Positions 20,541 to 33,161 of a stretch of 64,000 nucleotides of DNA are shown here, one piece after another (the first letter of the stretch is position 1; each line of letters begins with the position of its first letter). Both the position numbers and the translations under genes were made by a program. Origin of the DNA: Allostella vacuolata (GTDB taxonomy: Bacteria > Pseudomonadota > Alphaproteobacteria > ATCC43930 > Allostellaceae); contig AP019702.1 in assembly GCA_006739055.1 (NCBI GenBank), positions 1,302,501 through 1,366,500 on the forward strand. The letters are read 5' to 3'. The notes below the pieces were generated by a model that did not search any database, had not been told where the DNA came from, and was given only the letters and a program-made list of their open reading frames with translations.

Positions 20541-20594
20541 TCGCAGGCGGGGAGGGGGAGGCTGACTGGAAGGGCGCGCTGGATATCGGCAAAA

Positions 20595-20623
20595 GCGTCC
20601 CTCGACTTGCGCTCGGGATGAGG
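20595..20623 (+). repeat. Left arm of long inverted repeat split by the IS element
   Basis: This 29-bp arm is the reverse complement of 21813-21840 except for one extra base. Without the IS the two arms would be about 49 bp apart between the convergent TonB-receptor and EF-hand genes, forming a large hairpin. The arm sequence looks like the dispersed palindromes common between genes of GC-rich alphaproteobacteria. Confidence 0.8.
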
Positions 20624-20653
20624 AAGTTTTTGTTTTGCCACAAGCGTTTGTGC

Positions 20654-20662
20654 AGAGGAAGA
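20654..20662. repeat. IS target-site duplication, left copy
   Basis: AGAGGAAGA lies directly against the left end of the insertion sequence and is repeated exactly at 21800-21808 on the right. Nine bases is the expected duplication length for the IS903 group. Confidence 0.88.
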
Positions 20663-21799
20663 GGCGTTGTTGCATGGAGGCATCTGGAAACATGTGCTTC
20701 CCGCGGCGGCTGGAAAGTGATTCACGCTTTGGATGGCTCCCCGCTCCCGCAAGGTTCCCGCCCCGAAGGTCGTCGCGCCAGCCCAGAAGCGCGGCCGGCC
20801 AGCCCCTCGCTACCGTCGGCCGCCCGCCCCGAAGCCCCGCTATCGCATCACGAACTGGCGCGAATATAACGATGCTCTGGTGCGGCGCGGGTCGATCACG
20901 CTGTGGATCGATGAAGCGATGGTTGCCGGCTGGCGGGCATCCGGTGGTCGGGGATGGCGCTACAGCGACCAGGCGATCGTGTGTGCGCTGTCCTTGCGCG
21001 CGGTGTTCGGGCTCACGTTGCGCCAGACCCAGGGGTTCCTGCACGACCTGACGCGGCTGCTCGGGCTGGCGGTCGAAGTCCCGCACTACTCCACCTTCTC
21101 GCGCCGGGCGGCCACGCTCGCGGTACCGAAGCCCGCACGGCCGGTCGACGGGCCGTTGCATCTCGCGGTCGACGCCACCGGGCTCAAGGTGCATGGCGAG
21201 GGGGAGTGGAAGGTCCGCGTCCATGGAGCAGGAAAGCGCCGGGTCTGGCGCAAACTGCACCTGGCCGTGGACACCCGGACCGGCATGCTGCACGCCCATG
21301 CCCTGACAGCGAGCGAGGCTTCCGACGGCGGCCGGCTCGAGGATCTGCTCGCCGCCGTCGGCGCGCCGATCGAGGCAGTCTGCGCCGACAAGGCCTATGA
21401 TAGCTTCGACTGCCATGACGTCATCCGGGCGCACGGAGCACGGCCGGTGATCCCGCCGCGCAAGGGTGCTGCGATCCGACCACCGCAGAACCGACCCGAC
21501 GCGCCTCCCACCCGGGGCGAGGCGGTCGCCCGCATGGCCGAGATCGGGCGCAAGGCCTGGAAGATCGAGACCGGCTATCATCGCCGCTCCCTCGCCGAGA
21601 CCGCGATGCTCCGCTACAAGGTCCTGATCGGCCCCAGCCTCCGCTCGCGCAGCTTCGACCGACAAAAGGTAGAGGCCGCCGTCGCCGTCCGCTGCATCAA
21701 CCGCTTCACCGAACTCGGCATGCCCCACAGCGTCCCGATCACCTGAGAAAACCGGGAAAAGGGAGCTCCAGGACCACCCGAGCTCCATGCAACAACGCC
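20663..21799 (+). mobile_element. IS5-family, IS903-group insertion sequence, 1137 bp, complete
   Basis: Perfect 17-bp terminal inverted repeats GGCGTTGTTGCATGGAG (20663-20679 and 21783-21799) bound a single transposase gene, and a 9-bp target duplication flanks both ends. IR start GGC.TTGTTG and the 9-bp duplication are hallmarks of the IS903 group. Ends, duplication and transposase are all intact, so the insertion is recent and probably mobile. It interrupts a palindromic intergenic repeat and does not break any gene. Confidence 0.92.
20733..21746 (+). CDS. IS903-group transposase
   Basis: A 337-residue DDE transposase. The IS903-type N-terminus ITNWREYNDALVRRGSITLW is followed by catalytic aspartates in AVDATGLKVHGEGEW and CADKAYDSFDC and the glutamate in the KIETGYHRRSLAETAM region (Y-x2-R-x3-E). 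The very N-terminus is a basic proline-rich tail (RKVPAPKVVAPAQKRGRP) longer than in classic IS903. The reading frame is intact. It catalyses cut-and-paste or replicative movement of the element. Confidence 0.92.
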   Translation: MAPRSRKVPAPKVVAPAQKRGRPAPRYRRPPAPKPRYRITNWREYNDALVRRGSITLWIDEAMVAGWRASGGRGWRYSDQAIVCALSLRAVFGLTLRQTQGFLHDLTRLLGLAVEVPHYSTFSRRAATLAVPKPARPVDGPLHLAVDATGLKVHGEGEWKVRVHGAGKRRVWRKLHLAVDTRTGMLHAHALTASEASDGGRLEDLLAAVGAPIEAVCADKAYDSFDCHDVIRAHGARPVIPPRKGAAIRPPQNRPDAPPTRGEAVARMAEIGRKAWKIETGYHRRSLAETAMLRYKVLIGPSLRSRSFDRQKVEAAVAVRCINRFTELGMPHSVPIT

Positions 21800-21808
21800 A
21801 GAGGAAGA
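21800..21808. repeat. IS target-site duplication, right copy
   Basis: AGAGGAAGA, identical to 20654-20662, abuts the right terminal repeat. Confidence 0.88.
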
Positions 21809-21812
21809 TGCC

Positions 21813-21840
21813 CCTCATCCCGAGCGAAGTCGAGGGACGC
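21813..21840 (-). repeat. Right arm of long inverted repeat split by the IS element
   Basis: This 28-bp arm pairs with 20595-20623. It begins four bases after the right target duplication, so the IS landed in the loop of the original hairpin. Confidence 0.8.
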
Positions 21841-21872
21841 TATGACCGACGGGCAAGTATCCTCGAACGTGA

Positions 21873-31069: not shown

Positions 31070-31378
31070 CTATTCCTCGACGTCCGGCAGCATGCCGAGC
31101 GCGCGCTTGTAGACGTCGATCAGCTCCTCCTGCTCCTGCAGGTCCGCCTCGTCCATCTTCCGGATGCGGATGACCTGGCGCATGATCTTGGTGTCGAAGC
31201 CCTCGCTCTTGGCCTCGGCGTAGACTTCCTTGATGTCCTCGGCCAGTGCCTTCTTCTCTTCCTCCAGCCGCTCGATGCGCTCGATGAAGGAACGGAGCTG
31301 GTCGGCGGTCACGCCGGCGGTGACCACGCTCTGGGTCTTTTCCCCGCGCTCGCTGCGGAGTTCGGCTGCGCGTGCCAT
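31070..31378 (-). CDS. gapR: GapR-family nucleoid-associated protein (DUF2312)
   Basis: A 102-residue DUF2312 protein: [40 protein letters not shown] and [17 protein letters not shown] are the family core. In Caulobacter GapR is an essential AT-rich-DNA-binding protein that encircles overtwisted DNA and helps gyrase and topoisomerase ahead of forks. The family is largely alphaproteobacterial, supporting the taxonomic guess. The start ATG at 31378 overlaps the upstream DUF1244 stop (ATGA). It has a ~13-residue basic N-terminal extension. Confidence 0.85.
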
Positions 31379-31677
31379 CAGTGTCCCTGGTGTCCCTGGC
31401 CTGCAAAAGCCTTCTTCTGATCCACGCTGGCCTCCTTCTGGTGCTTCGATTTCCACTCGTCGTAGGGCATGCCGTAGACGACCTCGCGCGCCGCCGGGTC
31501 CGAGATGGCGACGCCGCGCTCCTCGGCTGCCGCCCGGTACCATTTGGACAGGCAGTTGCGGCAGAAGCCGGCCAGGTTCATCAGGTCGATGTTCTGCACG
31601 TCGGTGCGCTCGCGCAGGTGCTGGACCAAGTGGCGGAACGCCGCCGCTTCCAGTTCGGTCCGGGTCTTGTCGTCCAT
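31378..31677 (-). CDS. DUF1244 protein
   Basis: A 99-residue conserved protein of unknown role: [39 protein letters not shown] and [17 protein letters not shown] are DUF1244 hallmarks, with a CRNC cysteine pair that might bind a metal. It is coupled to gapR by a 4-bp overlap. In related genomes an N-formylglutamate amidohydrolase gene precedes this pair, and here a broken piece of that gene lies 25 bp upstream. Confidence 0.85.
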
Positions 31678-31702: not shown

Positions 31703-32058
31703 TCAGAAATGGTCGATCGCGTAGAGCTTCGGGTCGGCGAGGATCGGTTTCAAGGCCGATGCCAGCCGCCCGGCCCAGAGCGCCGCCCCCGCATCGTCGG
31801 CGATCAGGTCCTGCCGGATCTCGACCAGGACGTGCGGCAGGCCGCCGCCGGTGCCATGGACCGCGGTCGTGTAGCCGTGCGGCTGGCGCGCCGAATAGGG
31901 TTCGTTGTCGCCCACCACCACGCCCGCCTGGGCGCCGAGGGCCGCCAGCAGCGGCCGGGCGATGCGTGGATCGCGGTCCCACAACACCCCGAAATGCCAG
32001 GGCCGGGCAAGGCCGTGCATGAACGGCGTGAAGCTGTGGATGGAAACCAGGGCCGGCA
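31703..32058 (-). pseudogene. N-formylglutamate amidohydrolase, C-terminal half (severed)
   Basis: The minus strand encodes about 118 residues of the C-terminal half of an N-formylglutamate amidohydrolase: [46 protein letters not shown]. The frame is open further upstream but runs into a 97-bp repeat that encodes no family sequence. The N-terminal half lies on the opposite strand at 32138-32484. The native orientation was probably minus, in line with DUF1244 and gapR, so the N-terminal half was inverted. Roughly 25-30 central residues are missing. The enzyme normally ends histidine breakdown by releasing formate from N-formylglutamate. Confidence 0.82.
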
Positions 32059-32155
32059 CCCGGCCCTTCCGCGAACGGCGGCGGGCGCCTATAAAGCCCG
32101 GCTGCTCCACGAATGGCCGCCCGCCGCAACCGTCCCGCATGACCGACCCCGTCGC
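32059..32155 (+). repeat. 97-bp perfect inverted repeat, left arm
   Basis: Exact reverse complement of 32485-32581. It contains the gene's 5' untranslated region and its ATG (32138) with the first codons MTDPV. This copy replaces the central part of the amidohydrolase gene and is probably the duplicated arm. Confidence 0.9.
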
Positions 32156-32484
32156 CCCCCTGCCCGACCCCGCTCCCCTGCTTGGGCCCGCGCCCCTGCT
32201 TGGGCCTGGCGACCCGCCTGCCTGGCGATCCTTCAACGACGGCGGACGCGCGCCGCTGCTGCTGCTCTGCGACCATGCCAGCAACCGCATTCCCTCCGCG
32301 CTGGGCACGCTCGGCCTGGAGCCGGCCGAGCTGCAGCGGCACATCGCCTGGGACATCGGGGCCGCCGCGGTGACCGAGCGCCTGGCGGCAACCCTGGACG
32401 CACCGGCGCTCTTCTCCGGCTATTCGCGGCTCGTGCTCGACTGCAACCGCCATCCGGGCGGCGCGGGGTCGATCCCCGCCGTCA
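32138..32484 (+). pseudogene. N-formylglutamate amidohydrolase, N-terminal half (inverted)
   Basis: About 116 residues of the N-terminal half: [37 protein letters not shown] and [20 protein letters not shown] are family signatures, including the DHASN metal-site motif. After SIPAVSD the frame enters the right repeat arm and then stays open, in frame, into the cupin gene up to 33161, so a 341-residue fusion could in principle be made. The cupin has its own start and ribosome site, so I treat this as a broken gene. Confidence 0.8.
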
Positions 32485-32581
32485 GCGACGGGGTCGGTCA
32501 TGCGGGACGGTTGCGGCGGGCGGCCATTCGTGGAGCAGCCGGGCTTTATAGGCGCCCGCCGCCGTTCGCGGAAGGGCCGGG
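32485..32581 (-). repeat. 97-bp perfect inverted repeat, right arm
   Basis: Exact reverse complement of 32059-32155. On the minus strand it carries an ATG at 32501, probably the original start of the amidohydrolase, divergent from the cupin gene. The 329 bp between the arms (32156-32484) is the inverted segment. Confidence 0.9.
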
Positions 32582-32675
32582 GGCGCGACGGACGATTGTC
32601 TCGCCGTCGCCGGGCCGGCATTCTCGAAGGTGGGGCGCGGCCGCAGGCTCGCGCGGAGACTATCGGGAGGCACGC

Positions 32676-33161
32676 ATGATGAAGCCGGTCATGAACCTCG
32701 ACCAGGCCGAGTTCGACGATGTCGAGGAGAACGGCATCTACACCTCGAGCCGGGCCTCGATCGGCGACCGCATCGGTGCGCGCAACCTCGGCTACAACCT
32801 GACCGTCCTGCCGCCCGGCAAGGTCCAGTGCCCGTTCCACTGCCATCATGGCGAAGAGGAGATGTTCCTCATCCTGGAGGGCGAGGGCGAGCTCCGCTTC
32901 GGCGACCAGCGCTTCCCCATCCGCCGCCACGACGTGATCGCCTGCCCGCCCGGCGGCCCGGAAGTGGCGCACCAGATCATCAACACCGGCACGACGACGA
33001 TGCGCTATCTCTCGCTGTCGACCCTGGTCGAGGTCGATGCCTGCGAGTATCCCGATTCCGGGAAGGTGCTGGTCGTCTCGGGAAAGCGGGACAAGGTGGC
33101 GCTCTGGAAGATGTTCCGCGCGGAGAACGTGGTCGACTACTACGACCGGGAACCCGACTGA
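32676..33161 (+). CDS. Cupin-domain protein
   Basis: A 161-residue single-domain cupin. The two metal-binding motifs are visible: [20 protein letters not shown] (H-x-H-x-E type) and [22 protein letters not shown] lies just before the paired ATGs at 32676/32679. Cupins of this kind bind a metal and a sugar or organic acid; the substrate is unknown. It diverges from the presumed native promoter of the amidohydrolase gene, whose inverted N-terminal half now reads into it. Confidence 0.8.

Follow-up and report, generated by a model that had tools for sequence, protein, structure and literature searches.

How can one bacterial gene come to lie in two halves on opposite strands, with the same 97-bp sequence repeated in mirror image at their borders? 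The question arises at a locus of Stella vacuolata ATCC 43931, a star-shaped bacterium of soil. The window analyzed here is the 64,000-bp stretch at positions 1,302,501-1,366,500 of its 5,834,761-bp single-contig chromosome (AP019702; G000), and coordinates are those of the window unless the chromosome or another locus is named. The split gene encodes N-formylglutamate amidohydrolase (FGase, PF05013). Its C-terminal part, which runs to the stop codon, occupies 31703-32058 on the minus strand, the original strand of the gene, and matches PF05013 profile positions 133-218 (in 31706-32059). The N-terminal part is inverted relative to the C-part; it occupies 32139-32484 on the plus strand and matches profile positions 2-99 (in 32139-33158). 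The initial annotation had placed the two halves on these strands, as the PF05013 matches bear out, but its start at 32138 has to be corrected, the ATG being 32139-32141. Neither half contains stop codons. A full-length PF05013 domain in a single open frame is lacking here, with the halves on opposite strands and 38 residues absent; the gene is a pseudogene and looks dead. Because three further FGase-family genes in the chromosome are all uninterrupted, its loss may be buffered.

The two 97-bp sequences, which we term arms, lie at 32059-32155 (left arm, A; plus strand) and 32485-32581 (right arm, B; minus strand), and are separated by a spacer of 329 bp. The perfect inverted repeats and the 329-bp center given in the initial annotation hold at these coordinates: the arms are reverse complements of one another at 97/97 bases and can be extended in neither direction. 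Among the perfect inverted repeats within 5 kb in the 64-kb window, they stand far above background, the second longest having 18-bp arms. Across the whole chromosome (5.83 Mb), the arm matches its own two copies and no third, and a repeat family or mobile element was rejected on that ground. Read in the sense direction, each arm consists of the FGase upstream region, then the ATG, then the first codons, so that the earlier claim that the arm holds the gene's own ATG is borne out. By eye, GCGCCTATAAAGCCCGGCTGC in the arm resembles GCGCCTATAAGTCCCGGCTGCC at the same place upstream of the whole gene in the congener G002. The promoter-like CGCCTATAAAGC (arm A, 32086-32097, plus strand; mirror copy in arm B, 32543-32554, minus strand) has a similar counterpart, GCCTATAA, ahead of the FGase gene in G002 and G001, again by eye; since a sigma-70 consensus scan returned 0 sites, a promoter here is suggested at most. 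We also considered the arm as a leftover of the gene's middle, given that arm B reads stop-free on the plus strand after the SDGV codons, yet its upstream part looks like the sequence ahead of the gene in G002, and this origin was rejected.

Comparison with relatives defines what the locus has lost. The same-genus genomes in the relatives search comprised three congeners only (G001, G002 and G003), and all three carry a whole FGase gene beside a gene for a DUF1244-like protein (by eye), the counterpart of the DUF1244 gene (PF06844) conserved downstream of FGase at 31378-31677 on the minus strand in the window. The comparison with intact genes of close relatives that the initial annotation proposed thus favors its reading of a broken gene, as the congeners' whole genes include 38 codons absent from the window. 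The absent middle, flanked by SDGV on one side and the GR of the C-part on the other, amounts to 38 residues, or ∼114 bp, relative to each of the three congeners, in place of the 25-30 residues first estimated; in every one of them, SDG and VSIHS are 144 bp apart. A 43-amino acid probe of the missing middle, run against the chromosome, returned nothing beyond a stretch within a paralogue at 46% identity and a single hit at E 0.25, and we therefore rejected the idea that the middle was relocated rather than lost. More broadly, the N-part finds matches in 21/21 genomes, its own included, the best being G002 (81%), G001 (78%), and G003 (73%), and all 20 relatives contain one or more stop-free FGase matches of 612-624 bp, those outside the genus counting as matches and not as established orthologues. 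Two side observations concern the gene itself. An 18-bp tandem duplication is present in the FGase N-terminus at 32169-32204 (CCCGCKCCCCTGCTTGGG twice), encoding residues not seen in the three congener proteins. In congener G001 (L003, G001:C1:4041934-4045230), the FGase frame runs on stop-free into the DUF1244 gene, so that both fall in a single 376-amino acid frame.

The halves also carry information on the age of the break. The N-part of the window is identical to its congener counterparts at 83 of 100 aligned residues (G002), 81/104, and 74/99, and the congeners to one another at 79/101, 78/111, and 80/105; for the C-part, the values are 95/118 (G002, without gaps), 86/115, and 92/117 for the window and 86/116, 85/120, and 84/115 among the congeners. 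Both halves are thus about as near to the congeners as the congeners are to one another, which argues for a recent break. Identical arms and stop-free halves likewise imply either a recent break or an artefact.

The anatomy of the locus, the whole gene in the congeners, and the 38 missing codons are direct observations. Taken together with the duplicated upstream region and the putative microhomology at both junctions, they are best fitted by a template-switch inversion with duplication, one of the origins offered in the initial annotation, and we consider it probable that a single replication template-switch event, comprising two jumps, destroyed the FGase gene. Part of the locus reads as the reverse complement of ancestral sequence close by, as judged from the N-part relative to the C-part and to the three congeners, and from the arm duplicated in inverted orientation. 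It also contains a perfect inverted repeat (97/97) that is new relative to the ancestor, for which the congeners, with one upstream region each, serve as stand-ins. We infer that arm B retains its ancestral place and orientation and that arm A, with the N-part behind it, is the inverted copy.

In the proposed mechanism, synthesis in the sense direction would have copied the upstream region and first codons and left its template at ACCGACCCCGTCGC. The nascent 3′ end would then have annealed to the complementary GCGACGGGGTCG in the SDGV codons, ∼350 bp further on, either on the other strand or by folding back, and synthesis would have turned back across the N-part and upstream region. A second jump, forward at GGCCGGG, may have brought synthesis to the GRV codons, just before VPALVS. 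The original order of C-part, middle, N-part, and upstream region would thereby have become C-part, inverted upstream region, inverted N-part, and upstream region. Such a path would have turned the N-part around, doubled the upstream region, ATG, and first codons into a pair of 97-bp inverted repeats, and removed ∼114 bp, or 38 codons.

Both proposed junctions can be located. Junction 1 is GCGACGGGGTCG at 32485-32496 on the plus strand, a word common to the gene start (as reverse complement) and to the SDGV codons that end the N-part, giving a putative microhomology of ∼11-12 nt; by hand count, the SDG codons of the congeners agree with this word at 11/12 (G003), 10/12 (G001), and 10/12 (G002) positions. 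Junction 2 is GGCCGGG at 32059-32065 on the minus strand, where the far end of the upstream copy meets the GRV codons of the C-part, with a putative microhomology of ∼7 nt; G002 has GGGCGGGTG here. These lengths are estimates, because the ancestral junctions are reconstructed from congeners that are 75-83% identical in these protein parts. We likewise infer the single event, the direction of copying, and the exact microhomology. With congeners as outgroup, both junctions readable, and the halves undecayed, the locus offers an unusually legible scar of fold-back copying in a bacterium.

The inverted N-part now heads an in-frame fusion ORF of 340 amino acids (32139-33161, plus strand; PF05013 and PF07883), composed of 115 residues of the FGase N-part, 64 codons running from SDGV across arm B and the flank, and a whole cupin. 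The locus illustrates how a single event could knock out a gene, leave its start signals in two mirror-image copies, and open an in-frame fusion ORF. The cupin-domain gene (PF07883) lies at 32676-33161 on the plus strand, with its own ATG at 32676 and GGGAGG upstream. Neither the fusion ORF nor the C-part had an NCBIfam match at E 0.001. In the window, the cupin gene sits between FGase and a gene for a transporter, which we take to be EamA-like; in G002, the FGase and transporter genes are direct neighbors (by eye).

A survey of inverted repeats elsewhere in the chromosome yielded one further scar. The survey covered 120 pieces of 20 kb (2.4 of 5.83 Mb, with 10,000 bases masked as N) in addition to the window, using 12-nt seeds, an ungapped score of at least 24, and arms at most 3 kb apart; pairs were sought within pieces, so that those crossing a border were missed. 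All 16 inverted repeats found in the 120 pieces were inspected: 15 belong to a REP-like family, and one is an exception. The family, GCGTCCCTCGAC...GCTCGGGATGAGG with variants, occurs as inverted pairs across the chromosome, and short pieces of it are present in the window at ∼20594-21841. As a weak control, 479 kb of sequence from 80 FGase loci in other genomes contained five hits, all in a single locus (L078).

The exception lies at L141:17730-18792 (G000:C1:237730-238792), where the second of two tandem Asp/Glu racemase genes is broken. Its arms, L141 18183-18240 and 18534-18591 (chromosome 238,183-238,591), form an inverted pair with a 43-bp perfect core. Arm A is inside an uninterrupted Asp/Glu racemase gene (PF01177), and arm B is an inverted copy of arm A within the second gene. 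What remains of that gene is ∼27 N-terminal codons and a C-terminal end in another frame, recognized by comparison with congener proteins; taken singly, neither remnant reaches Pfam significance at E 0.001. In G002 and G001, the two racemase genes are adjacent and both are uninterrupted, and G003 has no close match to the first racemase. Relative to G002, ∼154 codons have been lost by hand count, and the junctions, reconstructed by hand, appear to share ∼7 nt (GGCCCGC) and ∼4 nt (GGCG). The racemase scar differs from that of FGase in that its copied stretch is only ∼43 bp and has a neighboring gene as its source.

The second scar, with its own arms, deletion, and short identities at the junctions, speaks for a template-switch origin of the FGase break, and its presence makes the rate of such events in the genus testable. 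One could go further and propose that Stella vacuolata is unusually prone to long fold-back template switching that breaks genes and occasionally makes in-frame fusions, both scars and the FGase-N/cupin ORF being its products. We hold this broader reading to be doubtful and claim no tendency, because 2.4 Mb yielded a single case outside the window, which is too few for that.

The final sequence by itself gives no count of events, and two or more successive events could have given the same product, with break repair or end joining producing separately a simple inversion, a deletion, and an inverted second copy of the upstream region. The surroundings lend this some color. The cupin gene has an 84%-identical counterpart in G002 that lies ∼2.9 Mb from the FGase gene, and since the cupin lies elsewhere in that genome, the spot may have undergone another rearrangement, and so seemingly more than one in all. 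Against this, one event with two jumps covers inversion, duplication, and deletion together, and arms that are identical at 97/97 bases beside undecayed halves leave little time for several steps. Separate events are for these reasons an unlikely origin of the broken gene.

The arrangement of the locus rests on one assembly, with no independent one for comparison, and perfect arms beside undecayed halves are also what would be seen if assembly or library preparation had scrambled a gene that is whole in the true chromosome. No second assembly of the species was found, the best hit in a scan of genome contigs, which may omit the window's own genome, being 69% identical. The assembly is a Unicycler hybrid of Nanopore and MiSeq 2×300 reads at 330× total coverage, polished with Pilon (PMC6687932), and a 300-base read should be able to span a 97-bp arm together with both flanks. 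Furthermore, the missing 114 bp was found nowhere else in the chromosome, and the racemase locus shows a similar scar with its own perfect core. Given the published hybrid assembly and the second scar of similar type, an artefact is distinctly improbable.

It might instead be supposed that the rearrangement gave birth to a new gene, in which the start signals carried by the inverted N-part would direct synthesis of a 340-amino acid FGase-N/cupin protein that the cell uses. The ORF is unbroken, in frame, and carries both Pfam domains, and the arm supplies it with an ATG and upstream region. Nevertheless, an in-frame fusion of this kind has a probability of ∼12% by chance, taken as a 1-in-3 phase multiplied by a stop-free share of 0.36 (5000 mononucleotide shuffles), the N-part is a mere fragment of its domain, and the cupin gene has a separate ATG and GGGAGG. 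Moreover, 0 of 34 cupin matches outside the locus lie within 30 kb of an FGase match on the same contig (a hand check in which many genomes were in many contigs). A used fusion protein is therefore very unlikely.

Least credible of all is an invertible switch within the gene (an intragenic inverton), active or, as the initial annotation had also offered, now degraded: although inverted repeats enclose a short center with part of the gene, and the arms contain promoter-like sequence by eye (missed by the sigma-70 scan), the arms are the gene's own upstream region, the usual repeats are 10-40 nt according to the available part of PMC11892184 as opposed to 97 bp here, no match to a tyrosine (PF00589) or serine (PF00239) recombinase, the two families searched, occurs in the window, and a flip restores no whole enzyme. 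Chromosome-wide, there are three PF00589 and four PF00239 matches, the nearest ∼1.6 Mb away. When the center was flipped in a script, the minus-strand ORF from the ATG ran for 306 amino acids, entered the C-part in the wrong frame after the arm, and still lacked the 38 residues, in agreement with the earlier statement that the gene looks dead in both orientations because the arm joins the halves out of frame. Finding part of a gene enclosed by a 97-bp inverted repeat is not by itself evidence of a regulated switch.

The origin that we favor, a two-jump template switch, has several relatives among known systems, which we compare here from the accessible portions of the reports cited. Four-point template switching, in which a reverse-complement stretch is placed between two switch points, often yields perfect inverted repeats (PMC7954356, PMC8794818), as at the FGase locus. 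The differences are of scale and setting: the inverted stretch here is ∼430 bp with 97-bp arms, which is long beside the short-range switches in great apes of PMC7954356 and counts against too simple an equation of the two, and PMC8794818 deals with RNA genes. Quasipalindrome-associated switching in E. coli (PMC7202029, PMC6357072) is likewise template-switch mutation in a bacterium, in PMC7202029 at inverted repeats; in the available text, that process is linked to existing imperfect inverted repeats, whereas here a start of ∼12 nt would have led to a 97-bp repeat and a deletion. Template switching at inverted repeats in yeast (PMC8604942) similarly inverts the spacer between the repeats in coding sequences, but the part seen describes existing short repeats and a change of protein, as opposed to the loss of a gene.

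The inverted duplications ascribed to ODIRA and MMBIR/FoSTeS (PMC10766186) resemble the locus in having a deletion nearby and two kinds of junction, the first inverted and at short inverted repeats, the second with microhomology (putative here); the cases in the accessible portion of that report are human and yeast copy-number variants, unlike a bacterial FGase locus. Invertons, as presented in the accessible portion of PMC11892184, have in common with the locus a short center flanked by inverted repeats, and differ in that the window is without a PF00589 or PF00239 match, the repeats are the gene's own sequence, and neither orientation yields a whole enzyme. The portions of the template-switch and inversion literature available to us contained no bacterial gene broken in such a manner, and published cases may still exist. 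The FGase locus is a further example of an already known type of mutation; it is instructive because it is large, its junctions can be read, an in-frame ORF came with it, and a companion scar lies in the same chromosome.
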